A stretch of 52,292 nt of DNA from a virus: IMG/VR virus record IMGVR_UViG_3300026118_000007, positions 1 through 52,292 of that record, one strand, 5' to 3'. Of the stretch, positions 21,212 through 35,851 are shown in pieces (the stretch's first letter is position 1; every line of letters starts with the position of its first letter). The position numbers were made by a program, and so were the translations under genes. The notes beneath the pieces were generated by a model that was given only the letters and a program-made list of their open reading frames with translations, did not search any database and was not told where the DNA came from.

Positions 21212-21279
21212 GTGTGGAGTAGTGTGTTCCAAGTCTACCGTTGTTAAACAGGCGCGTGAAGCTCTCACAAACTCCACAC
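21212..21279. repeat. Palindromic pair of two-part elements (copies F and G)
   Basis: Plus-strand GTGTGGAG at 21212 and minus-strand GTGTGGAG read from 21279 point towards one shared core, TTGTTAAACA (21241-21250). Distances from each outer block to the core are 31 and 30 bases. It lies in the gap upstream of queD and downstream of the secreted-protein gene. A smaller hairpin forms within the right half (GGCGTGTG with CACGCGCC, one mismatch). Confidence 0.8.
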
Positions 21280-21298
21280 GCCTGTCTGTCCTGTGTCC

Positions 21299-21808
21299 TT
21301 ACGAACAGATCACGCAGCGGATTCCGATGCTCGTGATCGTGTGGTACAGCTTCAGCGTGGAGCCGGCCGGGGACTGGTAGGTGTAGTTGTTCAGGTTGTC
21401 CATGTTGAACGTGCTACCGGCCGCGCCGAGGTAGCCGATCACCTTCCACTGCCCGGAAGTGTTGCAGTTGGCCCAGTTGAACACCGTGATGGCGTACTGG
21501 GTGTAGCCGCTCGACTGGGTGTACCACATCAGCGAACCGGTGTTGTCGTTCACCGGCGTTCCGTTGTCCCATGTCGCACCGGCCAGGTTGATGCAGCCGT
21601 CATGTGCCACGGTGAAGTTGAAGTAGGTCGACTGCCACCGGTCGCCCTCGACCTGTGCACCCAATCCAGTCCACTGGTAGGCGCAGAACGCGTCAGCGGC
21701 ACAGTATCCGCCGAACGCAGCCTGTGCAGGCGTAGCAGTGGCTGCGAGACCAAACCCCACCACGATACTGGCAGCGAGAGCGGCGAACGCCCTCTTGAGC
21801 TTATACAT
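21299..21808 (-). CDS. Secreted protein with Sec signal, I36-inhibitor-like
   Basis: This 169-residue protein has a typical actinobacterial signal peptide: MYKLKRAFAALAASIVVGFG, then ATATPAQA with cleavage expected after AQA (about residue 30). The mature part has six cysteines (GGYCAADAFCAYQW, GCINLAG, NCNTSG, GIRCVICS) and aromatic-rich strands, resembling the peptidase inhibitor I36 family and related Streptomyces secreted proteins. It would leave the infected cell. Ribosome site AGGAGAGTAAC precedes ATG 21808. It looks like a moron inside the modification operon. Target is unknown; I36 membership is tentative. Confidence 0.75.
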   Translation of the reverse strand: MYKLKRAFAALAASIVVGFGLAATATPAQAAFGGYCAADAFCAYQWTGLGAQVEGDRWQSTYFNFTVAHDGCINLAGATWDNGTPVNDNTGSLMWYTQSSGYTQYAITVFNWANCNTSGQWKVIGYLGAAGSTFNMDNLNNYTYQSPAGSTLKLYHTITSIGIRCVICS

Positions 21809-21835
21809 GTTACTCTCCTATCTCCCTGGTGGTAC

Positions 21836-21952
21836 TCACCAGAAGTTCTTGCCTCGAGCTGCGGCGATGATGGCCGAGACGGCGAAGGCGATGACTAGGA
21901 TGAGGCACACAGTGCCCCAGAAGTGTTCGAACACGAACTTAAGAACGGTCAC
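21836..21952 (-). CDS. 38-residue membrane protein overlapping queC
   Basis: GTG 21952 starts inside the end of queC and the frame ends at TGA 21836-21838, 27 bases before the secreted-protein start. The product has one helix, TVCLILVIAFAVSAIIAAA, with a short polar start (VTVLKFVFEHFW) and a tail RGKNFW. GGCGGCAGG lies upstream as a modest ribosome site. Membrane character and location match the micro-gene after queD. Confidence 0.55.
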   Translation of the reverse strand: MTVLKFVFEHFWGTVCLILVIAFAVSAIIAAARGKNFW

Positions 21953-22811
21953 TGACTACCTGCCGCCAGAAGTCGTAGTCCTCGTACTCAGTCTCGTCCA
22001 GTCCGACGCCACGAGTGATGTCCTCGTTGGTGAGACGGCTCTGTGCTTCGGCGATGGCTTCCATCCGCTCCACACAGGTACCGCACTTGCCGCAGTGCTT
22101 CTCGCCTCCCTTGTAGCAGCTCCAGGTCTCGTGGAGGGGTACGTCCAACCGCATGGCGCGGAAGGCAATGTCTGCCTTGGACGCGTTCAGGAACGGTGCG
22201 TAGATGAACGAACGGATCGCTGCGTCCATGACTGCCTTGTCTTCGAAGGGTCCGAAGCCTTCGTTGCCGGCCACGATGGCAGCGTCCATGATCTGGATGA
22301 ACTGCGGACGGCAGTCCGGGTACACGAAGTGGTCGCCGGCGTGAACTCCAGTGGCGAGGTGCTTGTAGTTGTTGTTGACAGCGATGCCAGCCGCGATGGA
22401 CAACATGATCATGTTCCGGTTCGGGACGACCGTCTTCTTCATGTTGTCTTCAGCGTAGTGACCCTCTGGCACCTCGATGACTGGCTTGATGCCGTTCTCA
22501 TCGCTGTCGTCGAGTCCGCCCTGGGTAAGGGCTGAGTTGCTGATCAGGTGGGTCAGTCCGGTGAGATCGACGATGTCGTGCCGCAGACAGAGCCTCTGTG
22601 CCGTCCGCATTGCGTAGGTGAGTTCCTTGCTGTGTCGCTGTCCGTAGTTGAAGCTGATCAGGTGAGGTGTCATGCCCTTGGCCAGCATGTCGTAGACCAG
22701 CGTGGTGGAGTCCAGGCCGCCCGAGAAGATGGCGACACTGTCAGGGTCCTTGTGGAAGTCCAGGTTGCGCCGACGGAAGTCGAGATACGACTCTTCGGTG
22801 TTCTGATTCAC
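21939..22811 (-). CDS. queC: 7-cyano-7-deazaguanine (preQ0) synthase
   Basis: QueC uses ATP and ammonia to turn 7-carboxy-7-deazaguanine into preQ0. The 290-residue protein has the PP-loop SGGLDST (about 30-36), the QueC-type FNYGQRH, PNRNMIMLSIAAG, and four zinc cysteines in WSCYKGGEKHCGKCGTC. There is no N-terminal amidotransferase domain as in Gat-QueC fusions, so the pathway should stop at preQ0. It is the first gene of the modification set and overlaps the primase stop in ATGA. The N-terminal 25 residues (NQNTEESYLDFRRRN) are an extra helix. Confidence 0.92.
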   Translation of the reverse strand: MNQNTEESYLDFRRRNLDFHKDPDSVAIFSGGLDSTTLVYDMLAKGMTPHLISFNYGQRHSKELTYAMRTAQRLCLRHDIVDLTGLTHLISNSALTQGGLDDSDENGIKPVIEVPEGHYAEDNMKKTVVPNRNMIMLSIAAGIAVNNNYKHLATGVHAGDHFVYPDCRPQFIQIMDAAIVAGNEGFGPFEDKAVMDAAIRSFIYAPFLNASKADIAFRAMRLDVPLHETWSCYKGGEKHCGKCGTCVERMEAIAEAQSRLTNEDITRGVGLDETEYEDYDFWRQVVSDRS

Positions 22812-24997
22812 TTGGGTCCTCCTGTCAGTGGGTGGTAAATCTGTCCACCCGATGGTGTACGGGACATACTGATCTGTCCGCGTTGGATGAGAGTATCGAA
22901 GGTCTGATTGGCACTTTGTGACGTCAGGTGGTAGCTCTGCATGAGTTGACTACGGCTGATGCCTGGGCGCTTGATGATGGCCGTGAGGATACGTTCAAGG
23001 TCACGTTCGTAGGATGTCTTGCCGATCCCATTGACAACCTCGATGGCGTACGCTCGCCACTGCTTGCAGTACCTGATCGCATGCAGGATGTCGATGACCT
23101 CTACAGTCACGCCCTCCTTGCCTACGTGACGTGCCGCAGAGATGAGAACGGCCGCCTTCAACGTGTTCTTGCTGAGTCGGTCGAACAGAGGCGTCATGAG
23201 TTCAGGCTTCTCCGACTCCAGCCCGCTCTGGACTAGTGCAGCCTCCAGCTCGTTGTACCTCTGCCACGCCTCAGGTGTTAGCTGTGCACTTGTCTGTACG
23301 TTCTCCTGTACCGACTCCCCTCTGGCCTTGATGTGCACTGTGCGACTTTGTCCGTAGTGGTTAACCAAGGCCTCCATCCTGGCGAGGAGGAGGTCACGGT
23401 TGCCTAGGTCCTTAACGGTTGGGGGCCCAAGAGGTTGAAGGCGACTGGTGTCAGATTCGGCCGTGACAAAAATGAAGCGAGGAATGAATCCGGACGAGAC
23501 GTGTTCATGAGTAAGGAGGCCCTGAACACGATTTCGAATGCCTCCTGCGAGGATGAGGAGGATCGGATGACGTACAGTGATCTCCTCTTTGCGCAGGATT
23601 CGCTTCTGCATCTTTCCATCATACAGCTTGGTGAGCACTTCCGCCATACCAGCATAGTAGTCCTTCTTAGTGATCATCTCCAGTAGACCTGAGAACTCGT
23701 CACGCAAGAAGATCGAGGGGCGCTTCGGCCTCGTGGATAGACCTTGCATAAGGCCTTCCACCGAGCCGTCCGTCGCCAGGATCGCATCCGGGTCCACCTC
23801 CTCCAAGAGGTCGGTCGCGATGTCCATCGCCGTCGACTTCCGCGTCAGCGTCGTGTCGCCCAGAATCATGAACCATAGGTTTGGGACAACGGGTCCATAG
23901 GAAGTCGGTAGGGTCACTCTCCCGGAGAGCAGAGCAGACAGGATCGTGAACGCACCTGCCTGGTGGTACTGCGTTGCCGCATCGCCAAGAGAACTCGCCC
24001 ATTCGATGTACTCCTCTACGAATCCTTCCTGTTGACTGGCCAGCTCCTCCTCTTCAGGAGTCATGAGGTCGCTCACTACAGCACCAGGAAACATGACAGC
24101 ATTGACACGTTCCTGGTAGGCTACGAACGCCCTACAGATCTCCACCCAGAGGTACTCTGGACTCTTACCGTCTCGTTGGTACTTGTTGCACTTCGACTCC
24201 CATGCTACCGTGAACACCTCTTCGCGGGTCATACCCATCTCGAAGAGGAGCATCTCCAGCTTCCAGAGACGCTCACTCCACTCACCGTCTGGTGTGACAC
24301 TGAACAGGTCGTAGGTGGCTGGTAGCAGTGCGTGTTGGTAGTCCTGCAGAATGTCCTCTGCGGGCTTGTCTGGTAGTTCCTCGGCAGTAGGCATTGGCGT
24401 CTTCAGGAAGGCGCTATGCTTCACCTCAGGGTAGTTCTTGAAGTCGTTCAGTGTGAACAGACCCTGCCGAAGTTCCACCAAGGCCACCATGGGATGGCCG
24501 GTGTACTTGTAGTTGAAGCTGGACGGTACACGAAGTAGCTGAGTCAGGTCCCAGCCACTTCTGTCACATCCATCCTCTGCGTGGAAGTAGGCAATGCGCT
24601 TCGCGATGTCTTCGGCTACATGTGGCGCAACTGGGTGGGCAAGACTCCACAGGCCCTGATACCTGCCAGGTGAAGACTCAACCACCAAGTTAGGTCGGAC
24701 CTGCATCCTGCCTGGCGGACATTCGTCAAGGTCTGCCCAGATGGTGGGACAGCTCTTCACGTTGTCCTTGCGCCTACGCTTGGTCTCGAACAGTTGAGGA
24801 CAATAGTACACGTCTGCTTGGTACTTACCATCCTCGACTGCACGAGCTGCTTGGTCGACCTGGTCAGGGTACAGGAAGAACCGTTCCGTCATCTCGCGCT
24901 TCTGGCCGCCATGGTTGGCGAGGAGCGCAACACAAATGTAACCCTTGGCCTCAGGGCCGAAGGCCACCTTGAAGAAGGTCTTGACTGCTGATTCCAT
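22808..24997 (-). CDS. Primase-helicase (AEP-type primase plus DUF3987-like ATPase)
   Basis: A 729-residue replication protein. The N-terminal 200 residues look like an archaeo-eukaryotic-type primase (IWADLDECPPG with the Asp pair near 89-91, VVESSPGRYQGLWSL, and RSGWDLTQLLRVPSSFNYK). The second half matches DUF3987-type helicases, with Walker A GDTTLTRKST (about 370-379), an acidic FLRDEFSGLLE (about 415) and IPRFIFVTAE. A winged helix (PGISRSQLMQSYHLTSQSAN) ends it. It should prime and unwind the fork with the PolA fusion. A terminator hairpin lies between it and the DUF669 gene, so it may have its own transcript. Confidence 0.8.
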   Translation of the reverse strand: MESAVKTFFKVAFGPEAKGYICVALLANHGGQKREMTERFFLYPDQVDQAARAVEDGKYQADVYYCPQLFETKRRRKDNVKSCPTIWADLDECPPGRMQVRPNLVVESSPGRYQGLWSLAHPVAPHVAEDIAKRIAYFHAEDGCDRSGWDLTQLLRVPSSFNYKYTGHPMVALVELRQGLFTLNDFKNYPEVKHSAFLKTPMPTAEELPDKPAEDILQDYQHALLPATYDLFSVTPDGEWSERLWKLEMLLFEMGMTREEVFTVAWESKCNKYQRDGKSPEYLWVEICRAFVAYQERVNAVMFPGAVVSDLMTPEEEELASQQEGFVEEYIEWASSLGDAATQYHQAGAFTILSALLSGRVTLPTSYGPVVPNLWFMILGDTTLTRKSTAMDIATDLLEEVDPDAILATDGSVEGLMQGLSTRPKRPSIFLRDEFSGLLEMITKKDYYAGMAEVLTKLYDGKMQKRILRKEEITVRHPILLILAGGIRNRVQGLLTHEHVSSGFIPRFIFVTAESDTSRLQPLGPPTVKDLGNRDLLLARMEALVNHYGQSRTVHIKARGESVQENVQTSAQLTPEAWQRYNELEAALVQSGLESEKPELMTPLFDRLSKNTLKAAVLISAARHVGKEGVTVEVIDILHAIRYCKQWRAYAIEVVNGIGKTSYERDLERILTAIIKRPGISRSQLMQSYHLTSQSANQTFDTLIQRGQISMSRTPSGGQIYHPLTGGPK

Positions 24998-25020
24998 ACA
25001 CTGCCCTGTTTAGTTGGGGA

Positions 25021-25058
25021 AAGGTTCCCTAGCCGAGGTGCGCGACTAGGGAACCCTT
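25021..25058 (-). terminator. Hairpin terminator between the ssDNA-binding and primase genes
   Basis: AAGGTTCCCTAG (25021-25032) pairs with CTAGGGAACCCTT (25046-25058), 12 bp with one bulged base and a 13-base loop. On the minus strand it is followed by TTTCCCC, a short U-tract. It would end or lower the transcript coming from the nuclease/ATPase operon. Confidence 0.7.
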
Positions 25059-25067
25059 CGAGGTGGA

Positions 25068-25553
25068 TCAGGAAGGCAGCAGCGAACCGCTACCCGGCTT
25101 GGCGTTGGCTGCCGGCGCACCGTCCTTCACGGACTTGTAGCCACCGATGTCGTTGCGAGCCTCGTACTCCTTCTCCTCACCCGTCTGCGGGTCGCGAACC
25201 TTCCGCTTCGGGGTGATCTTGACCTTGGCCCACAGCTCCTGGCCGAGCAGCTCCTCCGGCTCCGGCACCTCGACCTCGCCGGCCTCCGTCTCGATGCCCA
25301 GCCCGTTGAGCAGCTGGTTCAGGGAGTACAGTGCACCGGCGAAGAGCATGACGTTGGAGAAGACCTTCCGGCCCTCGTGGTCACCTTCGGCCACGGTGTG
25401 TTCCACCGCGTAGTAGGGCTTGCCGTAGTTCTTGTCCGACTTGCTCTCGCGGAGCTCGACGTCCGAGATGGTGACCTTGTACCAGCCAGAAGGAATCGGC
25501 TCCAGAACCTTGGAGCTGGCTTCCTGCTCGGTCATTACAACCTTGATACCCAT
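25068..25553 (-). CDS. DUF669-like single-stranded DNA-binding protein
   Basis: This 161-residue protein begins MGIKVVMTEQEASSKVLEPI, then SGWYKVTISDVELRESKSDKNYGKPYY and FAGALYSLNQLLNGLGI, the pattern of the DUF669 family that accompanies Sak4/RecA-like recombinases in actinophages. A C-terminal part with strands (LWAKVKITPKRKV) ends in a flexible GSGSLLPS tail. It probably coats single-stranded DNA during replication and annealing. Its gene follows the ATPase gene by 8 bases. Confidence 0.75.
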   Translation of the reverse strand: MGIKVVMTEQEASSKVLEPIPSGWYKVTISDVELRESKSDKNYGKPYYAVEHTVAEGDHEGRKVFSNVMLFAGALYSLNQLLNGLGIETEAGEVEVPEPEELLGQELWAKVKITPKRKVRDPQTGEEKEYEARNDIGGYKSVKDGAPAANAKPGSGSLLPS

Positions 25554-25561
25554 TTACGTTT

Positions 25562-26323
25562 TCACTTTCCCTTGTTGTAGTAGTTCAGGATGGTTTCCAT
25601 CGTGACAGTTTCGTCGGCACCGATGATCTGAGGCATCGTTGCGCCACGCACCTTGGCGACAGCGATGTCCGTCTGACCAGTGAGCATCAACCGACGTTGC
25701 TCACCATCGACCTCTTGGTTGTACATGAAGAAGACGATGTCGGGGATCGTGGGGACCTTCATCTGGGCCTTACCGTTCAGCAGTGGCATCCACTTGTGCT
25801 TGCCACCCTTGAGCTGAACACGCTCGGCGTGAGCGATGAAGATCACATTCATAGGAAGGTCACGGTAGAGACGAATGAGACGAAGGAGTCGAACCTGCAG
25901 CTTGCCCCATTCACGAATGCTAGGGATGTCTTCGTCCCTAGTCTCGTTCTCTGGGTCAGCTTTCATCTCTACCATGACCTGGTCTTTGCACTGCTCGAGG
26001 ATCTCCGACAGTGAGTCCAGAACCACTGTTCTGTAGGAATGTCCTCCGGCCTTGAGAGCGTTGTAGATGTCGATGTAGGCCTTCCAGTTCTTAGCGGGAA
26101 GGATCTCGACGTCGGGGTGTTCTCGGAGCGTAGCCTTGCCGGCCTCCGCGTCCACATACAGAACGTTCCGCATGCTGGGCACACGCGAAGCCGAACCAGC
26201 CAGCCACGTCTTGCCAACGCCAGCCTCCCCGTAGATGAGCATGTTCAGCTTGCTGATCTCGTGAACGTCAGGGCGCTCGATCTTGAGACCGGCAAAGCTA
26301 GTAGGAGTGAGGATATCAACCAC
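25562..26323 (-). CDS. RecA-like (Sak4-type) ATPase
   Basis: A protein of about 253 residues with Walker A YGEAGVGKTW (near residue 32), Walker B TVVLDSLSE (near 100), and NVIFIAHAE and LTGQTDIAVAKVRG later on. This is the AAA_24/Sak4 pattern, single-strand annealing recombinases related to RecA. It is paired with the DUF669 gene. The start is uncertain: GTG 26323 has TTGGAG nine bases upstream and overlaps the stop of the membrane micro-gene; TTG 26338 is the longer alternative. Confidence 0.8.
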   Translation of the reverse strand: MVDILTPTSFAGLKIERPDVHEISKLNMLIYGEAGVGKTWLAGSASRVPSMRNVLYVDAEAGKATLREHPDVEILPAKNWKAYIDIYNALKAGGHSYRTVVLDSLSEILEQCKDQVMVEMKADPENETRDEDIPSIREWGKLQVRLLRLIRLYRDLPMNVIFIAHAERVQLKGGKHKWMPLLNGKAQMKVPTIPDIVFFMYNQEVDGEQRRLMLTGQTDIAVAKVRGATMPQIIGADETVTMETILNYYNKGK

Positions 26324-26411
26324 AGCTGAACGCTCCAAGGTAGGTCAGGATGACTGCGACGATGGCATACAAGGCGACTCCGCAAGCTGCGCCCAAGAAG
26401 AACTTGGTCAC
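26316..26411 (-). CDS. 31-residue single-helix membrane protein
   Basis: GTG 26411 overlaps the stop of the 81-residue membrane protein (GTGTGA) and the frame ends at TGA 26316-26318, eight bases inside the RecA-like gene. It encodes VTKFFLGAACGVALYAIVAV and then ILTYLGAFSCG, one helix. The tight overlap at both ends copies the arrangement of the micro-genes near queD and queC. Confidence 0.6.
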   Translation of the reverse strand: MTKFFLGAACGVALYAIVAVILTYLGAFSCG

Positions 26412-26653
26412 ACCCATCCTCCAGTCAGGAAGTGTGCACCGAGCCAGAACATGAATGCTGCAAGGACGAACCTACGGAACTGAACCCATCCAGTCTTCTC
26501 GCGGCCCTTGGAGGTGCCGAACCAGATCCAGACGTGTTCGCTCAGAGTGTCGCCAGGCTTCGAGTTGAAGAGGGCAATGCCTTCGAGCACCAGGAAGTAG
26601 ACGAGCCAGGCCAGCCACCCGATCGTTGCTGGATCGGTGTACGTGATGGTCAT
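26408..26653 (-). CDS. 81-residue two-helix membrane protein
   Basis: Helix 1 is IGWLAWLVYFLVLEGIALF (about 11-29), a polar loop with SKPGDTLSEHVWIWFGTSKG follows, then helix 2 RFVLAAFMFWLGAHFLTGGW. Related small membrane proteins occur in early operons of actinophages; role unknown. ATG 26653 overlaps the nuclease stop (ATGA), so it is expressed with recombination genes and is not a lysis gene by position. Confidence 0.7.
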   Translation of the reverse strand: MTITYTDPATIGWLAWLVYFLVLEGIALFNSKPGDTLSEHVWIWFGTSKGREKTGWVQFRRFVLAAFMFWLGAHFLTGGWV

Positions 26654-28024: not shown

Positions 28025-28195
28025 CTATCGCTGCGGCATCCCGAAGCCATCGGAGTAGTCAGCGTCGTACAGTTCCCGGCACTTACAGTAGCCAGGACTC
28101 CTCTTGGAGGGGCACTCTGGGTGATGTCTCTTCTCCAATGGCTTCTCTTTGAACTCTTCCTCATACGGTCCAAAGAAGTCCTCATTGTCGTTCAC
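28025..28195 (-). CDS. 56-residue cysteine-containing protein, unknown
   Basis: GTG 28195 follows GGAGAGAAAC; the longer frame upstream is shadow sequence. The protein starts VNDNEDFFGPYEEEF, then PECPSKRSPGYCKCREL, a C-x8-C-x-C cluster that may bind zinc. It is the last gene before the operon promoter at 28006. Confidence 0.55.
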   Translation of the reverse strand: MNDNEDFFGPYEEEFKEKPLEKRHHPECPSKRSPGYCKCRELYDADYSDGFGMPQR

Positions 28196-28421
28196 GTTTC
28201 TCTCCTTTCCTACGTATGACGACCTCGCACCCGAGAGAGTTGATAATGCGTAGGGCCTTGGATAGAGTGATGTCCTTGCCATCCGCCTCAATGGCGGCCA
28301 CAAACGAACGTGACACCTCTGACATACTTGCCAGTCCCCTTTGCGAGACTGCTCGTCTGGTCCGTTCAGTGCCTACGACGTAGCCAAAGCCACTGGTGTT
28401 ACCAATCACGTACTCGTTCAT
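28182..28421 (-). CDS. Small HTH (XRE-like) DNA-binding protein
   Basis: From ATG 28421 the 79-residue protein reads MNEYVIGNTSGFGYVVGTER, then RTRRAVSQRGLASMSEVSRSFVAAIEADGKDITLSKA-type text, an XRE/HipB helix-turn-helix (SQRGLASMSEVSRSFVAAIE as the recognition region) followed by a RIINSLGCEVVIRRK strand. It is a candidate early regulator or antitoxin-like protein; no toxin partner is visible. ATG overlaps the upstream stop (ATGA) and its end overlaps the next gene by 14 bp. Confidence 0.7.
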   Translation of the reverse strand: MNEYVIGNTSGFGYVVGTERTRRAVSQRGLASMSEVSRSFVAAIEADGKDITLSKALRIINSLGCEVVIRRKGEKRERQ

Positions 28422-28816
28422 CGACGCTCGTCCTCGTGCCGCCATGGCTTGCGGTTGGCCCGGAAGCTCATGGTATAGATCCGGTCTCGCGGGTCGGTAC
28501 CTGCACCCTCGATGAGGTTGTACGGATGGATGTAGTTGGTCGGACGAGGCTTGGCGCACTTGGCATGTACGTACCAGCCGTACTTAGCGGAGCGCGCACT
28601 CTTGCCTGCATAGTCGGGACAGTCACAGAACTTGGTCGGCACTGCATACATCTGCGGCACCTTCCACCCCTCGCCGGTCTGTACGCGGAACTCCTTTGTG
28701 CCCTCCACAAGAGGAGGTTCTACCGGTACCGTGTACATGACATCACCACGCTTGATGGCCTCGACGAAGGCTTCGGCCTCATCGTTGTCAGGAATCTCCA
28801 CTACTACGAACCGCAT
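28418..28816 (-). CDS. 132-residue protein with CDC motif, unknown
   Basis: ATG 28816 gives MRFVVVEIPDNDEAEAFVEA, a basic-acidic alpha/beta start, then FCDCPDYAGK and WYVHAKCAKPRPTNY, which supply three cysteines and a histidine for possible metal binding. The frame upstream of 28816 is shadow. It is coupled to the HTH gene by ATGA. No family recognised. Confidence 0.65.
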   Translation of the reverse strand: MRFVVVEIPDNDEAEAFVEAIKRGDVMYTVPVEPPLVEGTKEFRVQTGEGWKVPQMYAVPTKFCDCPDYAGKSARSAKYGWYVHAKCAKPRPTNYIHPYNLIEGAGTDPRDRIYTMSFRANRKPWRHEDERR

Positions 28817-29150
28817 TGAGAACCTCCGAGATGTTCTGGTCAATGTTCTGCAGGAGCTTGGTCTGCTTCTTCGACTCGACGAGCATGCCAGCGGCAGCGC
28901 GCGACAGTGCGAGCACACTGTACATGATGCATTGTGTCATGTTCCAGCGGTTGTCGGCGATGAGACTCTTTGCCTTGGTACTACTCAGGAACTTCTGCTT
29001 AGCGTCCTCCGGTACGTGCATGCCTCGACCACGCACCCTGAACGCTGCCACAGCCTCACGCATGCCCTGGTAGATCTTCTCACGGGCGTCGATAGCTCGC
29101 CGCGCCATTTGCTCAGCGTTGCGTACGTACGTCTCTACTGATTCAGACAT
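28788..29150 (-). CDS. 120-residue helical protein, unknown
   Basis: ATG 29150 is preceded by GGGAGGTTTAACA, so the ribosome site and the GTTTAACA block of element copy B are fused. The product is nearly all helical (MSESVETYVRNAEQMARRAI, AKSLIADNRWNMTQCIMYSV, ESKKQTKLLQNIDQNISEVL) and probably a coiled-coil oligomer. It overlaps the next gene by 29 bp. Function unknown. Confidence 0.7.
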   Translation of the reverse strand: MSESVETYVRNAEQMARRAIDAREKIYQGMREAVAAFRVRGRGMHVPEDAKQKFLSSTKAKSLIADNRWNMTQCIMYSVLALSRAAAGMLVESKKQTKLLQNIDQNISEVLNAVRSSGDS

Positions 29151-29189
29151 TGTTAAACCTCCCCTCATGTCTCCCACAGAACTCCACAC
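29151..29189 (-). repeat. Two-part dispersed element, copy B
   Basis: Minus-strand GTGTGGAG (29189-29182) and GTTTAACA (29158-29151), 31 bases apart. GTTTAACA abuts the ATG of the gene at 29150. The copy points in the direction of that gene. Confidence 0.8.
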
Positions 29190-29260
29190 GCCGATGTCCA
29201 CGTGAAATCTCGAATGAACTTGTCACGAAGTCCAGAGCTCTCGTGAATGAACCAGCGCCC

Positions 29261-29299
29261 GTGTGGAGTACTGAAGCGGCACGCTACGGTTGTTTAACT
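29261..29299 (+). repeat. Two-part dispersed element, copy D
   Basis: GTGTGGAG at 29261 and GTTTAACT at 29292, 31 bases apart, on the plus strand, back to back with copy B. Its second block supplies the TAA stop of the leftward gene ending at 29294. The 143-bp gap between 29151 and 29293 holds only these two copies and no gene. Confidence 0.75.
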
Positions 29300-29518
29300 A
29301 GGTAGTGCAACGACGTTATGCGGAGGAGGTTCGACTCCGTAGAAGTCGTGCTCACGTCCTTTGCAGGTCTCCTCAGCTCGATGGTGGTGGACGACGGAGG
29401 TCTCTTGCCGCTTCTCCAGTTGGATACGGCTCTGCTGAGCCACAACAGCCGGATCGATACGGTCAGCGATCACGTACTTGTGGTGATCGGCCTGAATGCC
29501 ATTGACGACATTAGCCAT
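29294..29518 (-). CDS. 74-residue His-rich protein, unknown
   Basis: ATG 29518 lies 8 bp inside the previous gene. The protein starts MANVVNGIQADHHKYVIADR and has a charged helix (VAQQSRIQLEKRQETSVV), HHH, and C-K-G-R-E-H-D. It ends VVALPS. No family recognised. Confidence 0.55.
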   Translation of the reverse strand: MANVVNGIQADHHKYVIADRIDPAVVAQQSRIQLEKRQETSVVHHHRAEETCKGREHDFYGVEPPPHNVVALPS

Positions 29519-29693
29519 TGTTGTCCTTCTCCACTGCACGAATGGCACTGTACCAGATGGTGTACTTGTAGCCCATGAGCAGGTGCATAGCCTGCTCCTG
29601 CGTGAAGCCTGCACGTACCCAGGAGATGAACATCTCGTGGTCCTCTACGGCCGCTGAGTCGAGCGTAGCGTCGTAGAGGTTGTCGTCAGGCAC
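29511..29693 (-). CDS. 60-residue protein, unknown
   Basis: A small acidic helical protein (MPDDNLYDATLDSAAVEDHE, then FISWVRAGFTQEQAMHLLMG) whose second half resembles a UBA-like or HTH helix pair. It overlaps both neighbours by 8 bp (start 29693, end 29511), consistent with a coupled operon. Confidence 0.6.
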   Translation of the reverse strand: MPDDNLYDATLDSAAVEDHEMFISWVRAGFTQEQAMHLLMGYKYTIWYSAIRAVEKDNNG

Positions 29694-29958
29694 CGTCGAC
29701 CACCTCGATCTTGAACTGCTGGGGGTCCCTGATGTCCAAGTTGGTGAAGTACTCCTCAGGCGCGATGTCGCCGTGGAGTACGTAGCGCTTCTCGTACATA
29801 GCCATGTCCTGTACGGTCATGGCCTGTTGCTCCTCCAGAGTGGTTTCCTTCTCTAGCTTCGGGTCTTCGTCGTCGGTGTAGACGACAAGAAAGTTCTCCT
29901 TCTTGACGAAGTCGGTGATGTCGACGTTGATCCGCAGCATGATCCGAGGGTCTGCCAT
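29686..29958 (-). CDS. 90-residue acidic protein, unknown
   Basis: ATG 29958 follows the previous stop (29961) by two bases with GGAAGTGGTAGTA upstream. The product starts MADPRIMLRINVDITDFVKK and contains VVYTDDEDPKLEKETTLEEQ. No motif recognised. Confidence 0.55.
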   Translation of the reverse strand: MADPRIMLRINVDITDFVKKENFLVVYTDDEDPKLEKETTLEEQQAMTVQDMAMYEKRYVLHGDIAPEEYFTNLDIRDPQQFKIEVVDGA

Positions 29959-29960
29959 TA

Positions 29961-30281
29961 CTACCACTTCCTTCCGGTGACATCCTTGTGTACTGGGCTC
30001 TTCGTTGTGGACTTATGTCCCACAAGGCAGGGGAGCGCGTAGCTGACGGTCTGGTACTGCCCAAAGGGGAGGCCCTTCTCATTGAAGGTGCCGTCCTTCA
30101 CGACGATGTCCTCGTGTGCCGCGAGCGAGTGGGAACATTTACCTCCGCCGCTCATGACGGGCAGCTGTCCCGTGTTACGCTTGGCGTGGTACGGAAGTCG
30201 CTTCTTCCGCCTCGGGTTACGTCGGGCAGAGATGACACCGTTCTGAGCATTGATATCGAACCAGTACTGTCCAGCGTACAT
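29961..30281 (-). CDS. 106-residue basic protein downstream of the helicase, unknown
   Basis: ATG 30281 sits two bases after the helicase stop (30284), after GAAGGGATAACC. It starts MYAGQYWFDINAQNGVISAR, is basic (RRNPRRKKRLPYHAKR) and ends with HKDVTGRKW. A CSHSLAAHED segment and C-L-V-G-H might bind metal. Coupling suggests it works with the helicase. Confidence 0.55.
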   Translation of the reverse strand: MYAGQYWFDINAQNGVISARRNPRRKKRLPYHAKRNTGQLPVMSGGGKCSHSLAAHEDIVVKDGTFNEKGLPFGQYQTVSYALPCLVGHKSTTKSPVHKDVTGRKW

Positions 30282-30283
30282 GG

Positions 30284-31747
30284 TTATCCCTTCTGGGGTG
30301 TGAGGATGGACTTGAGCCAAGTCCATTTCATTTCGATCTTGTCGTTACGTTGTCGGTCGATAGTCTCACGGGCAACAAGTGTGAGGATGAGCACGGCGTT
30401 CTTCTGTCCCAGACGGTGTAGACGATCCTCCGCCTGACGGTTGGCTGAGGGGCTCCAGGCACGATCCAGGAAAACACAGATCGTAGCAGCAGTGAGAGTG
30501 ATACCGACCCCGCCCGCCTTAATGGTACTGCAAAAGACTCGCAGGCGACCAGATTGGAACTTCTCAATATACTGATCACGATCCGCTTGTTTCGTGTCAC
30601 CAGTAAGAACCCCAAAGGATACGCCAGCTTTTTCAAGGCGGGCTGCCAAGAGGTTGATGGCCTGTTTTGATTGTCCGAAAACCACGATCTGTTCATTGGT
30701 CGCTCCAATGATATCCATGACCGCGTCGAGCTTGCTGCTCGGCTCGTCCAACACTAACTGGTGTAGTGGTGCACCGTTCTTGTACACCAGCTCCATCTTA
30801 CCGTACGCTACAGCGAACTGCTGCAGACGTACCAGCTGACTAATGACTGCTGGAGCTGCCACGGGCTGGTCTTCGTGAGCACCAACCCATGCCAGCATGT
30901 CCTTGGCCATCATGTCGTACGTGCGACGCTGCTTCGGGTCCAGTTCGACAACTCGGTCCTCGTAGGTCTTCTCCGGGATGTCCTTCCAGACCTCTTCCTT
31001 CGTCCGCCGGATGTAGCCCCAACCCATCCTGCTGTGGATGAGCTGCTGGTCGTGTACTCCGACGATCTCAGTGAACGGACGCTTGTGACTCTTGCCACAC
31101 TCGTCAGCGAGACAGTAGCCTTCGTTGTGCTTCTTCTGCAGAACGTGGTGGTTGAAGAAGCCCCAGTAGGAACTGAAGGTCTTCGGCCAGAGCCAGTTAA
31201 GCACTGACCAGGCATCGTCGGGCCTGTTGTCAGCCCATGTGCCACTGAGCCCTGTCTTGTAGTAGGTCTTCAGCTTCTTGAAGGCCTGGGTCTGTTGCGC
31301 CTTGCGGTTCTTGATGTTGTGAATCTCGTCGCCGATGATGTGGAACCAGTTCACTAGGTTGATATCTTCGGCGATAAACCTCAGTACCTGCCAGTGGCAC
31401 ACGAAGACGTGATACTCCGGCAGCCCACGACCATTCCGGGCCTTCAGTGCCGCGACGAACTCGTTCCGGTTCTTCCTGTTGATCACCTTCACTTTGAGCC
31501 AAGGTGCCCACTCCTTGTAGTGGCTCTCCCATGCGCCCATGACGGACGTCTGTGTGACTACCAAGGTCTGTGCACTGTACGAGCAGTTGTGCTTCTTCCG
31601 CTTCATCTGGTCTAGAGTGATGGCCTCCACCGTCTTACCAAGGCCCATGTCGTCACCGATGAGGAAGCTACGATCGTCCGTCTCAGGGTGCCTAGGGTTC
31701 ATGCCCTGACGAACGCAAGCCTCTTGGAAGTCGTACAGCTTCAGCAC
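30284..31747 (-). CDS. SNF2-family DNA helicase/translocase
   Basis: This 487-residue protein has the SF2 motifs of the SNF2 group: motif I GDDMGLGKT (about 31-39), Ia VVTQTSVMGAW, II DEIH (about 136), III LSGTWADN, V STIKAGGVGITL (about 417-428), VI RQAEDRLHRLGQ (about 446-457). It would remodel or unwind DNA forks, as in other actinophages. GTG 31747 follows the previous stop directly. No nuclease domain is fused. Confidence 0.88.
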   Translation of the reverse strand: MLKLYDFQEACVRQGMNPRHPETDDRSFLIGDDMGLGKTVEAITLDQMKRKKHNCSYSAQTLVVTQTSVMGAWESHYKEWAPWLKVKVINRKNRNEFVAALKARNGRGLPEYHVFVCHWQVLRFIAEDINLVNWFHIIGDEIHNIKNRKAQQTQAFKKLKTYYKTGLSGTWADNRPDDAWSVLNWLWPKTFSSYWGFFNHHVLQKKHNEGYCLADECGKSHKRPFTEIVGVHDQQLIHSRMGWGYIRRTKEEVWKDIPEKTYEDRVVELDPKQRRTYDMMAKDMLAWVGAHEDQPVAAPAVISQLVRLQQFAVAYGKMELVYKNGAPLHQLVLDEPSSKLDAVMDIIGATNEQIVVFGQSKQAINLLAARLEKAGVSFGVLTGDTKQADRDQYIEKFQSGRLRVFCSTIKAGGVGITLTAATICVFLDRAWSPSANRQAEDRLHRLGQKNAVLILTLVARETIDRQRNDKIEMKWTWLKSILTPQKG

Positions 31748-32014
31748 TTAACACCACCTGCAAAGTTGTCTTGGGCCGTACTTGACGTACAGCGGTCCGC
31801 GTCCTGCTAGCCATGCCTCGGCATCCGAGAAGGCCAGGAGTGCGATGTGCTTAGGCGATATGGTCTGACCACACTGTGCACGGATGTCTGCTATCAGGAG
31901 TGGGTCAGCCCTTATCAGTTGCGAGCGTCCGTGGTCCACTCTATGTAGCACTACTGCTTGTTGGTGTACACTAGTGAACCAGTCGAACGCTAACCACCTG
32001 ACCACTACCACCAC
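31748..32014 (-). CDS. 88-residue protein upstream of the helicase, unknown
   Basis: The frame begins with a run of GTG codons at 32014 (true start may be the GTG at 32005) and ends two bases before the helicase start. The product starts basic and hydrophobic and has DIRAQCGQTISPKHIALLAF, a possible helix-turn-helix, then AWLAGRGPLYVKYG. The start is not well supported by a ribosome site. Confidence 0.5.
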   Translation of the reverse strand: MVVVVRWLAFDWFTSVHQQAVVLHRVDHGRSQLIRADPLLIADIRAQCGQTISPKHIALLAFSDAEAWLAGRGPLYVKYGPRQLCRWC

Positions 32015-32341
32015 CTATTCCGGATGATCACCCTGATCACGTACATCAGTGCCAGTACTACCAGGACTAGTCCTACGATCTTCACCCAGCACCACCGTCT
32101 CTAAGACGTCTCCTGTCTCTTTACAGTACCAGTGGATGTAGCTCTTGCCGTTGTACCGTTCAGGTTTGAAGCCGAGCAAGGAAGACTTGTAGCCGTGCCT
32201 CTGCCGATGGTGTTTACACCAGACGCCGTCAAGCTTGTGTGCAGAGGACGTGTCAGGCGTCCAAGTCGCTCCCTGGTACTTCTTCCTCTTCCGGTACTGT
32301 CGAGTCGGTTCGCTTCCACTTCCCCAACTTGAAGTACTCAT
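32015..32341 (-). CDS. Basic zinc-binding-like protein, frame overlapping its neighbour
   Basis: ATG 32341 lies 88 bp inside the previous gene, read in another frame; no ATG, GTG or good TTG occurs nearer. The 108-residue product contains WCKHHRQRHGYKSS and HWYCKETGD, a Cys/His set suited to zinc binding, then ETVVLGEDRRT. The first 35 residues overlap the HTH gene. The second part looks real; translation could begin by the overlapping start or by frameshift from the gene above. Confidence 0.5.
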   Translation of the reverse strand: MSTSSWGSGSEPTRQYRKRKKYQGATWTPDTSSAHKLDGVWCKHHRQRHGYKSSLLGFKPERYNGKSYIHWYCKETGDVLETVVLGEDRRTSPGSTGTDVRDQGDHPE

Positions 32342-32534
32342 CGGCAGCCTCCACGTCGACCACCGTCCGTCCGCACGAGCAGTGCTCAGGCACCACCTTG
32401 TGGTTGCGGATAGCAGCGTAGACCTTCTGAGGGTAGATGCCACGCGACTTGGCATACGGGATGGGCGCCATCTTCGAAGCGCCCTCGAGGTCGCCCAGTC
32501 GCATCTCTTCGATCGCGTCGTCGATGCCGCCCAT
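32253..32534 (-). CDS. Excisionase-like HTH protein
   Basis: This 93-residue protein starts MGGIDDAIEEMRLGDLEGAS, followed by YAKSRGIYPQKVYAAIRNHK, a winged-helix/MerR-type recognition pattern, and ADEYFKLGKWKR. HCSCGRTVVD adds a Cys-x-Cys. It ends with an EEEE run. Likely a small DNA-binding regulator. It follows a membrane micro-gene by five bases. Confidence 0.65.
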   Translation of the reverse strand: MGGIDDAIEEMRLGDLEGASKMAPIPYAKSRGIYPQKVYAAIRNHKVVPEHCSCGRTVVDVEAADEYFKLGKWKRTDSTVPEEEEVPGSDLDA

Positions 32535-32539
32535 GCCAG

Positions 32540-32653
32540 TCAGTCCAGTCCTCGCCGAGGCGGCCTCGGCTTGTTGCGACCGATCGTACTCACGATGATG
32601 ATCGTGAAGCAGATCGCAGCTATGGAGTTGAATATTGCTTCCGGCCAGCTCAT
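32540..32653 (-). CDS. 37-residue single-helix membrane protein
   Basis: ATG 32653 is one base after the TGA of the winged-helix gene, and the frame ends at TGA 32540-32542, five bases before the next start. It encodes MSWPEAIFNSIAAICFTIII, then VSTIGRNKPRPPRRGLD, one helix and a basic Pro/Arg tail, so the C-terminus probably faces the cytoplasm. Same pattern as the other micro-genes. Confidence 0.6.
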   Translation of the reverse strand: MSWPEAIFNSIAAICFTIIIVSTIGRNKPRPPRRGLD

Positions 32654-32654
32654 G

Positions 32655-33050
32655 TCAGTCCACCAGAGTCATCTTGTAGATCTTACCGTCGTCGATGTCC
32701 TCCACGAGGAGGTAGTTCGGACGCTGCTTGATCACCTCGACCGTGAGCTTGTCCAAGGTGGGCTGCGCTGGCTCGCCGTACTTGTCTGCGGCAAGCTCCT
32801 GCTTCTCGACGAAACGCCACATGCCTGTCGAGAGCTTCTCCACGCGTTCCACGAGAGGGTTGGTCGCACGCGTCCCGCCCTTCCTGTTCCAGCTGGACTC
32901 AGCCAGGGCGTGCATGACCTTGTGGCGCGCCCACCCAGTCTTCTCAGCGAGCTCCTCGGCCGTAACGGACTTGTTCGGGTGCTTGGCCAGGTAGTTCAAG
33001 CAGTCGCGGAGGCAGCCCCTCTTGAACCTCGGCTGTAGTTCTTCCGTCAT
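32655..33050 (-). CDS. Winged-helix DNA-binding protein
   Basis: A 131-residue protein: KRGCLRDCLNYLAKHPNKSV, then AEELAEKTGWARHKVMHALA, the helix-turn-helix of a winged-helix domain, then a wing with RATNPLVERVEKLSTGMWRF. The C-terminal 35 residues form a separate small unit (LTVEVIKQRPNYLLVEDIDD). Its start faces the GTTAGAC array at 33074-33171, so it may regulate itself. ATG 33050; ribosome site GAGAGAAGAGAAAA. Confidence 0.7.
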   Translation of the reverse strand: MTEELQPRFKRGCLRDCLNYLAKHPNKSVTAEELAEKTGWARHKVMHALAESSWNRKGGTRATNPLVERVEKLSTGMWRFVEKQELAADKYGEPAQPTLDKLTVEVIKQRPNYLLVEDIDDGKIYKMTLVD

Positions 33051-33073
33051 TGGTTTTCTCTTCTCTCGTGGTA

Positions 33074-33171
33074 GTTTAGACTGTTGTTGGACGAGTTAGA
33101 AGGTAGGTTAGACGCGAGTTTCCCAAGTGTTAGTCAGGTCTCTGTAGGTCGTTTAGACCTTGTGGTTAGAC
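33074..33171. repeat. GTTAGAC-type iteron array
   Basis: Six related words lie in one gap: GTTTAGAC (33074), GTTAGAAG (33095), GTTAGACG (33107), GTTAGTCA (33129), GTTTAGAC (33151), GTTAGACT (33165). Spacings are 21, 12, 22, 22 and 14, mostly near one or two helical turns, so a protein could bind one DNA face. The array lies upstream of the winged-helix gene. The 127-bp gap holds nothing else recognised. Confidence 0.6.
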
Positions 33172-33177
33172 TTGATG

Positions 33178-33498
33178 CTACCCGTGGACTTCGTGTCCGG
33201 GACGTTGCTCCAGTTCCACCTGACGTGCCAGTGCATCGTGCACCATCTGCTTGCGAGCAGAAGACATAGACGTACGCGGGAAGAACTTCTCCCGCTGGTC
33301 CGGTGGCGTGACGTCGGGAATGCTTCCGTCGGATCGAGTCTGCACGATCCAGCCCATCTCGTGGTACTTGCAGTTGTCTTCGGGACAGATCAACGTGATT
33401 AGTTGACCGCCTCCCTGGACAGGCTTCCTCGAGGTGACCTTGCCTTGGAACTGTCCGTCACGAGGACAGCGGCTGGCTTCCTCCCACGTAGCGCTCAT
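33178..33498 (-). CDS. Zinc-ribbon-like protein
   Basis: From ATG 33498 the 106-residue protein reads MSATWEEASRCPRDGQFQGK, then GGQLITLICPEDNCKYHEMGW: one Cys in the first strand, CPEDNC and a His in the second, as in a zinc ribbon. The C-terminus is a charged helix (SARKQMVHDALARQVELEQR). It is likely a nucleic acid or protein binder. It overlaps the preceding membrane gene by 4 bp. Confidence 0.6.
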   Translation of the reverse strand: MSATWEEASRCPRDGQFQGKVTSRKPVQGGGQLITLICPEDNCKYHEMGWIVQTRSDGSIPDVTPPDQREKFFPRTSMSSARKQMVHDALARQVELEQRPGHEVHG

Positions 33499-33629
33499 GG
33501 GAACAACACCACGATTCCCAGAGCCAGTACGGCAATGACGAACAACAGAACGACCCCTTCTAGTATGACCGTCAGACACCCAGAGTCTTCCTCTTCGGAG
33601 CCCCAGATCTCGTTATCCCCATCCTCCAT
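33495..33629 (-). CDS. 44-residue single-helix membrane protein
   Basis: ATG 33629 starts a product with an acidic N-terminus (MEDGDNEIWGSEEEDSGC) and one C-terminal helix (LTVILEGVVLLFVIAVLALG, then IVVLFP). It overlaps the previous micro-gene by 17 bp and the next gene by 4 bp (ATGA). Confidence 0.6.
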   Translation of the reverse strand: MEDGDNEIWGSEEEDSGCLTVILEGVVLLFVIAVLALGIVVLFP

Positions 33630-33699
33630 TGATCCACCACCCCAAAGCGATGAGTCCGAAACATGCCCCGATGACCAGTGTGAGTATGAGACAGCCCAT
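33613..33699 (-). CDS. 28-residue membrane micro-protein
   Basis: ATG 33699 starts two bases after the previous stop (TGA, then T) and ends at 33613 in an overlap with the gene at 33629. The whole product is one helix, MGCLILTLVIGACFGLIALG plus WWINGGWG. Small, but position and coupling resemble the other micro-genes. Confidence 0.5.
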   Translation of the reverse strand: MGCLILTLVIGACFGLIALGWWINGGWG

Positions 33700-33700
33700 A

Positions 33701-34168
33701 TCACTTGGCTGCCTCCAGCTTCCGCTCGACGACTTGCAGCCGCATCTCCAGACGCTCGATGTCGTCCTGTAGCGACTGCGACAGGCGCATGAGGTCATGC
33801 GTCCGCTGCTCGAGCTGATGGGTCTTACCCTTGGGTGCACGCTTGCGCTCCAAGATCTGCCTGAAGGTCTCCTCCTCTGGAGGAAACTTCAAGAGCCACT
33901 TGGACGTAGCAGAGCCTCCACCACGGCGTAGCTGTTCGATACAGCCCTGCGCCTTAAGCGCCGCCATGATCTTGGTGTAGTAGGGGTTGGCAATCTGCAG
34001 CTCTGCGAACAGCCGCGTCAGATGGCCGATGTACACATCGACCTGTCGATAGCCCGACGGATCATCGAGGTCTTCGACCTCTTCTCTGTTGCTGCGCTTG
34101 TGCATCTCCTCGTACAGCCGCTTGGCGTGCTCGAAGAGAGCTGGTGTCAGCTCCTCCACGTCACTCAC
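33701..34168 (-). CDS. Winged-helix protein with C-terminal coiled coil
   Basis: A 155-residue protein: PYYTKIMAALKAQGCIEQLR and GGGSATSKWLLKFPPEEE form a winged-helix unit (about 61-100), followed by a coiled coil (THQLEQRTHDLMRLSQSLQD, DIERLEMRLQVVERKLEAAK). It is likely a dimeric DNA-binding regulator of the early region. It overlaps the upstream gene by 8 bp. Confidence 0.65.
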   Translation of the reverse strand: MSDVEELTPALFEHAKRLYEEMHKRSNREEVEDLDDPSGYRQVDVYIGHLTRLFAELQIANPYYTKIMAALKAQGCIEQLRRGGGSATSKWLLKFPPEEETFRQILERKRAPKGKTHQLEQRTHDLMRLSQSLQDDIERLEMRLQVVERKLEAAK

Positions 34169-34358
34169 AGTCCTGCTCCAGGTGCTCCTTGAGTGCTACC
34201 ATCGTACCGTAGTCGTCCTTGAGCTCCACATGTGCCTTGAGCATCTCTTCCGGCGACGTATACGTTCCGTCGGACTGATGATGCTCCAGCATCGCGTCTA
34301 TGGACTCGATGGTCTCCCCTACGATCCGTGCAGCTCTCTGTCTGTCGAACTCTACCAT
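34161..34358 (-). CDS. 65-residue helical protein, unknown
   Basis: MVEFDRQRAARIVGETIESI starts an acidic helical protein. ATG 34358 lies only three bases after the TATAAT of a promoter and has no ribosome site, so the mRNA would be leaderless or the real start lies further in. No family recognised. Confidence 0.55.
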   Translation of the reverse strand: MVEFDRQRAARIVGETIESIDAMLEHHQSDGTYTSPEEMLKAHVELKDDYGTMVALKEHLEQDCE

Positions 34359-34361
34359 CTA

Positions 34362-34391
34362 ATTATACCCTAGTTCTACAAGGGAAGTCAC
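34362..34391 (-). promoter_or_regulatory. Early promoter P34
   Basis: Minus strand GTGACT (34391-34386), 18 bases, TATAAT (34367-34362). It follows the terminator at 34425-34474, so it begins a new operon (34358 leftwards). Confidence 0.65.
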
Positions 34392-34424
34392 GATGTAACA
34401 TTGTTAAAACCGATGGAGCTTAAA

Positions 34425-34474
34425 GGAAAGCCCCCAAGCTGGGGTCGCGGGGGGCGATGGCTTGAGGGCTTTCC
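34425..34474 (-). terminator. Rho-independent terminator after the 211-residue gene
   Basis: GGAAAGCCCCCAAGC (34425-34439) pairs with GCTTGAGGGCTTTCC (34460-34474), 15 bp with one mismatch and a 20-base GC-rich loop. On the minus strand TTTAAG follows. It separates the 34513 gene from promoter P34. Confidence 0.85.
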
Positions 34475-34512
34475 GGCGAAGCGGCTGCTTTGGGGTACGC
34501 CGCTAACCCTTG

Positions 34513-35148
34513 TTACTCGGCCTCGACGATCGGGGCCTGCTCGGCGACCTCGGTCGGGGCGTCTCCACTCTTGGACTCGCTGCCCTTGGCCGCCTTCTTG
34601 GCCGCCTTCTCCGCAGCGCCAGCCTTCTGGGCCTTGACGCGCAGGTCCTTGGCGTCCCACCATTCCAGGCCGGCCTGCGGCTCGACGACGGCAGTGCGGC
34701 CCTCGGCCTTGGTGGCCGGGAACGGGTTCTTGCTCTCCGGGCCGTTGTTCTTGATGTAGCTGTACACGACCTGCGGCGCGACGCTCTGTCCCTCCGGCAG
34801 TCGCACACCGAGCTCCGGGTGCTCCTGGCGCAGGTGCTCCGACAGGATCTTGGCGAACTGGACCGGGCTGACCTTGCCCTCGGGAACCGGCGGACGCGTC
34901 GACTCCTTCTTGTCCTTGGCCGGCTTCTCGCCCTCGACTGGTGCGGCCACCGTGTCCTCGGAGGCCTCGGCCGGCGCGTCCACGTCGACGTCCACGTTCT
35001 CGAAGTCCGGTTCGGCGAACTGGGGTTCGGTTGCGGTGCTCATCTCGATGTTCTCCTGGTTCTCGTTGGTGATGTCAGTTTCAGGACTCTTGCCGTCGTT
35101 GCGAACCTCTTCGGTCGCCGTCTTGGTTCGGCTCTTCCTCAGTGCCAT
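34513..35148 (-). CDS. 211-residue acidic protein with a YxYxxN helix motif, unknown
   Basis: The N-terminal 85 residues are disordered and acidic (EPQFAEPDFENVDVDVDAPA). The middle has FAKILSEHLRQEHPELGVRL, then VAPQVVYSYIKNNGPESKNP and GLEWWDAKDLRVKAQKAG. The C-terminus is Ala/Lys-rich (AAEKAAKKAAKGSESKSG). The central part resembles the gene at 43484, so both may share a DNA-binding helix domain. ATG 35148 lies six bases after a TAGAAT -10 box and has no ribosome site, so a leaderless mRNA is likely. Confidence 0.65.
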   Translation of the reverse strand: MALRKSRTKTATEEVRNDGKSPETDITNENQENIEMSTATEPQFAEPDFENVDVDVDAPAEASEDTVAAPVEGEKPAKDKKESTRPPVPEGKVSPVQFAKILSEHLRQEHPELGVRLPEGQSVAPQVVYSYIKNNGPESKNPFPATKAEGRTAVVEPQAGLEWWDAKDLRVKAQKAGAAEKAAKKAAKGSESKSGDAPTEVAEQAPIVEAE

Positions 35149-35154
35149 GATTTA

Positions 35155-35183
35155 ATTCTACTCCCTTTCCTTGCTCTTGTCAC
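35155..35183 (-). promoter_or_regulatory. Promoter for the 211-residue gene, leaderless type
   Basis: Minus strand GTGACA (35183-35178), 17 bases, TAGAAT (35160-35155), six bases, ATG (35148). The expected start base is the A of the ATG, the classic leaderless layout of Actinobacteria. Confidence 0.75.
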
Positions 35184-35188
35184 GACTG

Positions 35189-35392
35189 TCATCTAGGAAA
35201 GTTCGTGATCTTTTTGTGGACCTCTTTGTCCGTCTCTGCTACCACTGCAGGCTCTGTGAACCAGCAGTTGACTCTGTCGCGGAGGCTAATGCCCTCGATA
35301 GGTACGTCAATGCTCTCCGGAGCCTCTACTAGCTCCCGAATCAAGTCGGCTGCCATGCCTACAGCGTCAATGTACTCATCCTTGGTGGCCAT
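35189..35392 (-). CDS. 67-residue protein, unknown
   Basis: MATKDEYIDAVGMAADLIRE starts an acidic helical protein that ends with ETDKEVHKKITNFPR. Ribosome site CTGGAGGGGCAA precedes ATG 35392, and a promoter lies upstream at 35422-35451. No family recognised. Confidence 0.6.
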   Translation of the reverse strand: MATKDEYIDAVGMAADLIRELVEAPESIDVPIEGISLRDRVNCWFTEPAVVAETDKEVHKKITNFPR

Positions 35393-35421
35393 TTGCCCCT
35401 CCAGCTTTTTGCGCTAATTCA

Positions 35422-35451
35422 ATTATAGCGCAGCGCCTTAGGACTCTTCAA
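35422..35451 (-). promoter_or_regulatory. Early promoter P35 with TAGCGC leader
   Basis: Minus strand TTGAAG (35451-35446), 18 bases, TATAAT (35427-35422). The leader reads TTAGCGCAAAAAGCTGGAGG, closely matching the leader of promoter P38 (TGTAGCGCGAAAAGCTAAGG), so the two units share ancestry. It overlaps the end of the Pro-rich gene. Confidence 0.75.
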
Positions 35452-35851
35452 GAGGTGCCACTGGAGCACTTTTTGTTACCGTGAAGGTTGGCTGCGGAGC
35501 CCTACTCGAAGGTGGTGGCGCAGTCCGCGTTCGCACAGGTGTAGCTGAAGTCCTAGATGGTCTTGGAGACACACTAGACGGAGTCAGCCGCGCGTGTGGA
35601 GTTTTGGTTGGCCTTGGCCTCCCTTGTTTAACAACCGTTGGAGTGGTAGGAACAAACACCACACGGGCCTTTGACGTCTGTCTAACGTCTTGTTCCTGTG
35701 TGCGCTCTCCCATCCCTGTTGAGTGTTCTACCTGAACACCAGTACTCGGTGGAGGCTCACTACGGAACGTCTCACCTAGCACCATACCTAGTGCTACTGC
35801 AGGACCAATTCCGGCAGCTACTACGACACTGAATACAGTTACAGGTTTCAC
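35438..35851 (-). CDS. Membrane-anchored Pro/Thr-rich protein
   Basis: GTG 35851 gives VKPVTVFSVVVAAGIGPAVA, a signal anchor, then a long Pro/Thr/Ser/Arg-rich chain (VVKQGRPRPTKTPHARLTPS and similar). It would extend across or outside the membrane. There is no clear ribosome site, because the start abuts the tRNA-like element (35853-35946). Copies C and K of the dispersed element lie inside the frame. Whether the full frame is translated is uncertain. Confidence 0.5.
   Translation of the reverse strand: MKPVTVFSVVVAAGIGPAVALGMVLGETFRSEPPPSTGVQVEHSTGMGERTQEQDVRQTSKARVVFVPTTPTVVKQGRPRPTKTPHARLTPSSVSPRPSRTSATPVRTRTAPPPSSRAPQPTFTVTKSAPVAPLEES
35594..35664. repeat. Palindromic pair of two-part elements (copies C and K)
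   Basis: Plus-strand GTGTGGAG at 35594 and minus-strand GTGTGGTG read from 35664 point towards a shared core, TTGTTTAACAACCG (35624-35637). Both distances to the core block are 32 bases. The layout equals the F/G pair at 21212-21279, although the spacer sequences differ. Confidence 0.8.

Follow-up and report, generated by a model that had tools for sequence, protein, structure and literature searches.

The repeated element that recurs along this phage genome most likely serves as a docking site for a phage control protein, not as an integration site. We analyzed the window, i.e. the complete stretch of DNA (a virus record of 52,292 bp whose terminal repeat measures 99 bp), together with its relatives, and hold, with confidence slightly above even, that the repeats form an operator, bipartite and directional, for a DNA-binding protein encoded by the phage, which would control transcription at chosen gene starts. 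This reading draws on what the genomes display directly (sequence, conservation, position, orientation and the absence of co-variation between arms), from which we infer binding by a protein, its origin in the phage genome and an effect on transcription, more likely exerted through an operator or roadblock than through a promoter. In one unit, the asymmetric arm (CGTGTGGAGTTTTG) would be separated by about three helical turns from the AT-rich core (GTTWAACANGG), both on the same face. Late genes would be served by one unit directed with transcription, and early-operon loci often by two opposing units, as a core-sharing double or a back-to-back pair, through which both transcription directions could be controlled.

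Late genes are read rightward, from 44 kb past the window end to 13.4 kb, and early genes leftward, from 44 kb to 13.4 kb, both labels being derived from gene content. The early set comprises DNA polymerase A, PTPS/QueD, MazG-like and HNH-like proteins, a PD-(D/E)XK nuclease, an SNF2 helicase and an AAA_24 ATPase. Direct terminal repeats measure 99 or 127 bp in the relatives; we discounted them as biology, since lengths of 99/127 bp look like k-mer overlaps of circular assemblies. A megablast search with bases 1-25000 of the window found no match among isolated phages, and two early proteins had no relative among isolates. Scanning IMG/VR with the motif pattern returned 26 loci in 21 records, most of them relatives with ~72% nucleotide identity over about half of the genome, or nearer. 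These near relatives, found via the motif itself and then fetched whole, carry the same element at corresponding places. The matches in G020 and G021, which show no similarity to the window, look like chance.

The CGTGTGGAGT arm is present in 11 exact copies in the window, compared with 0.18 expected from shuffles, and exact arm-plus-core composites number seven (eight when up to two arm mismatches are allowed), compared with none in 100 shuffles; near genomes hold 4-9 composites each. Two pairs around a common core, which an initial annotation of this DNA had placed at ~21.2 and ~35.6 kb, were recovered as head-on doubles at 21211-21280 and 35593-35665, an arrangement that appeared in 0 of 100 dinucleotide-shuffled windows. 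In both, the arms are directed toward a core lying 31-33 bp from the arm 5' end. A further window locus (29150-29300) contains two elements back to back. The relevant features of the window are:

21211..21280, no single strand: double D, with exact arms at 21211-21220 (+) and 21271-21280 (-) and core GTTAAAC at 21243-21249, upstream of the queD-like gene
20649..21197, minus strand: QueD-like gene with a PTPS domain, downstream of double D
35593..35665, no single strand: double E, with an exact arm at 35593-35602 (+), core GTTTAAC at 35626-35632 and a second arm at 35656-35665 (-; CGTGTGGTGT, one mismatch), within a Pro-rich membrane-protein frame in the window and upstream of 34513-35148
1951..1989, plus strand: single element B, pointing late, placed after gene 1003-1935 and ahead of the next gene with its conserved start at 2093
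2035..2064, plus strand: sigma70-like promoter (TTGCTT-18-TATAAT), located 3' of element B and also kept in G017 and G019
29152..29190, minus strand: single element C-early, with ribosome-binding site, core and ATG (GGGGAGG-TTTAACA-ATG) in an order kept in several relatives
29260..29298, plus strand: single element C-late, back to back with C-early and antisense to early genes
44657..44696, plus strand: single element A, late direction, 16 nt 5' of the GTG start of a small gene ahead of the terminase operon
14342..14470, plus strand: variant locus F, late direction, in which TTAGAC repeats and a long hairpin come after the arm
12916..12925, minus strand: coreless arm
41108..41117, minus strand: coreless arm within a nested hairpin
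43068..43077, plus strand: coreless arm, followed by a hairpin
33701..34168, minus strand: candidate binding protein, winged helix and C-terminal coiled coil
35451-35422: sigma70-like promoter

A set of 72 non-redundant composites gave the consensus CGTGTGGAGTTTTG-N18-GTTWAACANGG, composed of an asymmetric 14-bp arm and a palindromic 7-bp AT-rich core. The arm-to-core offset ranges from 31 to 35 and is 32 or 33 in 56 of the 72; the centre-to-centre distance averages 31.0 bp, or ~three helical turns, which places arm and core on the same DNA face. Single copies are polar, with A at +7 and G at +10 each in 30 of 31, while the base preceding their core is unconstrained. The doubles are two polar units that have the palindromic GTTWAAC in common, and an opposite arm (up to one mismatch) is found at 32 of 66 composites versus 0.3% of random positions. 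Comparing the composites bore out the earlier proposal that single copies, including those in the window, are halves of the double arrangement. The spacer has diverged while arm and core are retained, for example at locus A in nine genomes, which we count in favor of the operator reading. Counted against it are arms that are coreless or lie inside genes; in the window, GTTWAAC is missing at four arms (12925-, 14342+, 41117- and 43068+). An Rfam search yielded no match, and a literature search with the motif letters found no phage paper.

Orientation differs between the two operons. In the late operon, every copy points late, as a single at locus A in 10/10 near genomes and at locus B in 8/8 genomes. 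Early-operon copies that point early often have a late-pointing partner, which shares their core or stands back to back with them. Locus D, before the QueD-like gene, carries a double in nine near genomes (the window, G001, G003, G005, G006, G007, G017, G019 and G022) and a single copy in G013 and G023; locus E carries a double in the window (G000), G003, G006, G017 and G019 and a single in G001, G007 and G013. At locus C, before 28788, eight genomes have an early copy, accompanied in the window, G007, G017 and G019 by a separate back-to-back late copy. G006 shows one shared-core double there instead of two separate elements, so the symmetric double is not the conserved unit, and both directions seem, judging from these arrangements, to matter more at early loci than a common core. 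The initial annotation had seen in the geometry a protein engaging core and arms. Same-face phasing (31.0 bp) and the retention of doubles in relatives agree with that part, but the symmetric double on which it was modeled does not hold as the unit. Its related expectation that relatives should not lose one arm of a pair likewise survives in part: both arms are kept at 21.2 kb in the window and eight near relatives, whereas one is lost at the 35.6-kb locus in G001 and G007.

Relative to genes, single copies mostly lie directly upstream of starts and point with the gene, and the core of most sense singles is 0-16 nt 5' of the start codon. Among intergenic exact arms, sense arms tend to precede a start codon and antisense arms tend not to, in both the near and the distant group. 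The late-pointing copies in the early operon have no gene downstream, a further count against the operator reading. As a separate observation, G009 (L058, near 6000) and G011 (L060, near 6150) are 96% identical contigs with one letter-identical double; their similarity ends exactly at the arm end of this double and the next small gene differs, marking a cassette boundary.

Distant relatives, reached via the 43484 protein and fetched whole, have most genes in common with the window at 30-60% identity. No CGTGTGGAGT composite was found in them and the GTTWAAC core is also missing, an absence that counts against the operator reading. Seven of these genomes repeat CCCTGTGGGT as an arm, with a similar T-rich/G tail after it, and G036 repeats CGTGTGGAG[T/C] without a core. 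The operator thus differs between lineages of one conserved phage family, much like the ESAS sequence between cluster K subclusters, and co-divergence of operator and protein would produce such a pattern.

One candidate binder is the predicted winged-helix protein of 33701-34168, which is shared by near genomes and CCCTGTGGGT genomes and modeled as a winged helix followed by a coiled coil (pLDDT 82.5). Its fold matches are weak (best E 0.004), with RepA_N-type plasmid initiators on top and MarR-type repressors also present, and the search is too weak to assign the protein to a family. The presumed recognition-helix region reads NPYYTK in one group and VPYYTT in the other. Since other small proteins are equally conserved, this protein is only a lead; that several candidate binders share this conservation is also counted against the operator reading. 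The small conserved DNA-binding candidates besides it are the proteins of 43484-43822, 34513-35148 and 14635-14952. An HTH_3 frame (28182-28559) was rejected as binder, being present only in near-identical genomes, and no family-wide repressor was recognized. We would regard as tentative, and rather unlikely in its entirety, the fuller scenario of non-integrating phages using a polar bipartite operator in opposing pairs to govern both transcription directions at early-operon loci, with an arm whose specificity switched between lineages (CGTGTGGAGT to CCCTGTGGGT) in step with a conserved regulator, perhaps that of 33701-34168. Separately, the protein of 14635-14952, conserved in the phage family, is HNH_3-like, with IFADGN apparently standing where a catalytic HH is usual and with a coiled-coil-like C-terminal tail; it possibly binds DNA without nuclease activity.

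By analogy, the elements are best read as a lineage-specific operator system akin to the SAS/ESAS repeats of cluster K and the stoperators of cluster A. SAS is a 13-bp sequence (GGGATAGGAGCCC) just 5' of start codons in cluster K mycobacteriophages, and ESAS a 17-bp imperfect inverted repeat with a short spacer and SigA-like hexamers whose sequence differs between subclusters (PMC3203893, PMC11373665); their function was still called unclear in 2024 (PMC11373665). Likenesses include several intergenic copies near starts, mostly in one orientation, an inverted-repeat extension in part, lineage-specific sequence and an unknown binding protein (PMC3203893, PMC11373665). The window element differs in combining a 14-bp arm with a palindromic 7-bp core at a distance of three turns and in forming head-on doubles. 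It lies near starts as SAS does but has no sequence in common with it, and, unlike in ESAS, its arm does not resemble its core, at which TANNNT is missing. Stoperators are asymmetric sites across the genome that are oriented with transcription (PMC4351075; PMC9283540). The same orientation is seen here, with A and B pointing late wherever present and most early singles sense, but the opposing copies at D, C and E depart from it. Each stoperator is also one short asymmetric site recognized by the immunity repressor of a temperate phage, in contrast to two boxes with opposing copies; no integrase or resolvase was found in nine genomes of the window family. Cluster O mycobacteriophages (Corndog), apparently non-temperate, carry 17-bp dyad repeats of unknown function genome-wide (PMC4351075); these are symmetric, exceed 30 copies and are not tied to starts, whereas the window element is polar, less numerous and start-associated. 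The window element resembles SAS/ESAS and stoperators in position and polarity and belongs to neither in sequence or architecture, and we file it as a new variant among start-associated operator repeats with a presumed mechanism. It adds to the start-associated repeats of phages a second, independent system that has a clear consensus, a polarity rule and a natural variant series spanning about 20 genomes. Comparing the arm's switch between lineages with the conserved candidate proteins could offer a direct route to the reader protein of such sites, and the paired opposing copies within an operon suggest control of antisense transcription.

Phage-specific promoters are an unlikely alternative, in which the arm would act as a -35-like box, the core as a -10-like box and GG as the discriminator, and doubles would be overlapping bidirectional promoters with a common palindromic -10. 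The polar two-box build, the spacing play of +-1 bp, the AT-rich core and the orientation with genes, including late copies ahead of the terminase and tail operons, all fit such an arrangement, and the comparable cluster K ESAS repeat has been read as containing promoters (PMC11373665). At locus C, however, the ribosome-binding site lies upstream of the core, with ATG 0-1 nt after the core in the relatives seen (AGGAG-GTTTAAC-AATG in G001); some distant relatives carry both ribosome-binding site and start codon only 17-35 nt past the arm, the ribosome-binding site at about 17-25 nt. A transcript starting after the core would lose these signals, and a simple promoter reading would therefore fail. 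Arm and core are, moreover, three turns apart instead of the two of -35/-10, and the core has no TANNNT match. A Sigma70_r4 profile search found none; a T7-type RNA_pol search was silent, as was its control.

Less probable still are replication sites, with arm plus core or the TTAGAC repeats serving as initiator or priming sites and locus F as origin. In many relatives, locus F couples an arm with a long hairpin and tandem, iteron-like TTAGAC repeats, and RepA_N-type initiators head the fold matches of the winged-helix candidate. Against this, those matches reach E 0.004 at best and include MarR-type repressors, and most elements sit at gene starts, oriented by transcription. The hairpin of locus F (14342-14470) is long and near-perfect (GGTTAGACGAGAGATA...TATCTCTCGTCTAACC; z -5.7 for the DNA strand), and in many relatives, including several that carry the CCCTGTGGGT arm, its stem persists although the letters differ; the locus is a possible replication origin or structured RNA. 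A nested hairpin at 41060-41165 (GGCACAAAACT...AGTTTTGTGCC) encloses GTCTCCTC-TTCA-GAGGAGAC and has a lone arm inside (z -3.6). In G001 and G003, the locus between 40611-40895 and 41569-41949 carries arm and core.

An RNA leader element, in which arm and core in the 5' leader would govern translation or processing and the double would fold as an arm-arm stem, is slightly less probable again. Sense copies do lie in the presumed leader beside the ribosome-binding site, and the arms of a double are able to pair (z -2.5 for D), but the E stem is no better than shuffles (z -0.95) and the polar consensus is complete in late-pointing copies, which lie on the strand opposite to the early mRNA. Where the two arms differ (window E, G001 D, G003 E, G005 D, G007 D, G019 D and E), pairing is broken without a compensating change. 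That differing arms never co-vary argues for a protein on DNA and against an RNA stem, and led us to reject arm-arm hairpin pairing. We also rejected a reading of the core as a boxA antitermination signal, which its central W and palindrome do not fit.

An attachment or synapsis site for site-specific recombination, suggested by the core-and-arms geometry and by the G009/G011 break at the arm end, is highly improbable: homologous exchange where a gene boundary is conserved explains this single break equally well, genomes carry several composites instead of one site, and Phage_integrase (PF00589) and Resolvase (PF00239) profiles were absent in nine genomes with positive controls, so that the reading fails. 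The initial annotation had itself found no recombinase, in accordance with this absence of tyrosine and serine recombinases; its comparison to att sites or replication origins is not supported, given the several composites per genome, the placement of most of them at gene starts and their orientation with transcription.

Two observations concern the surroundings of double D. The gene run at 17622-22811 resembles 7-deazaguanine (preQ0-type) DNA modification and is kept in most relatives, with the QueD-like gene assigned by its PTPS match and QueE-, QueC-, FolE- and DpdA-like frames by eye. Adjoining the double, 21299-21808 encodes a secreted-looking 169-aa protein that is missing there in most relatives and has a 36% relative in G009/G011.
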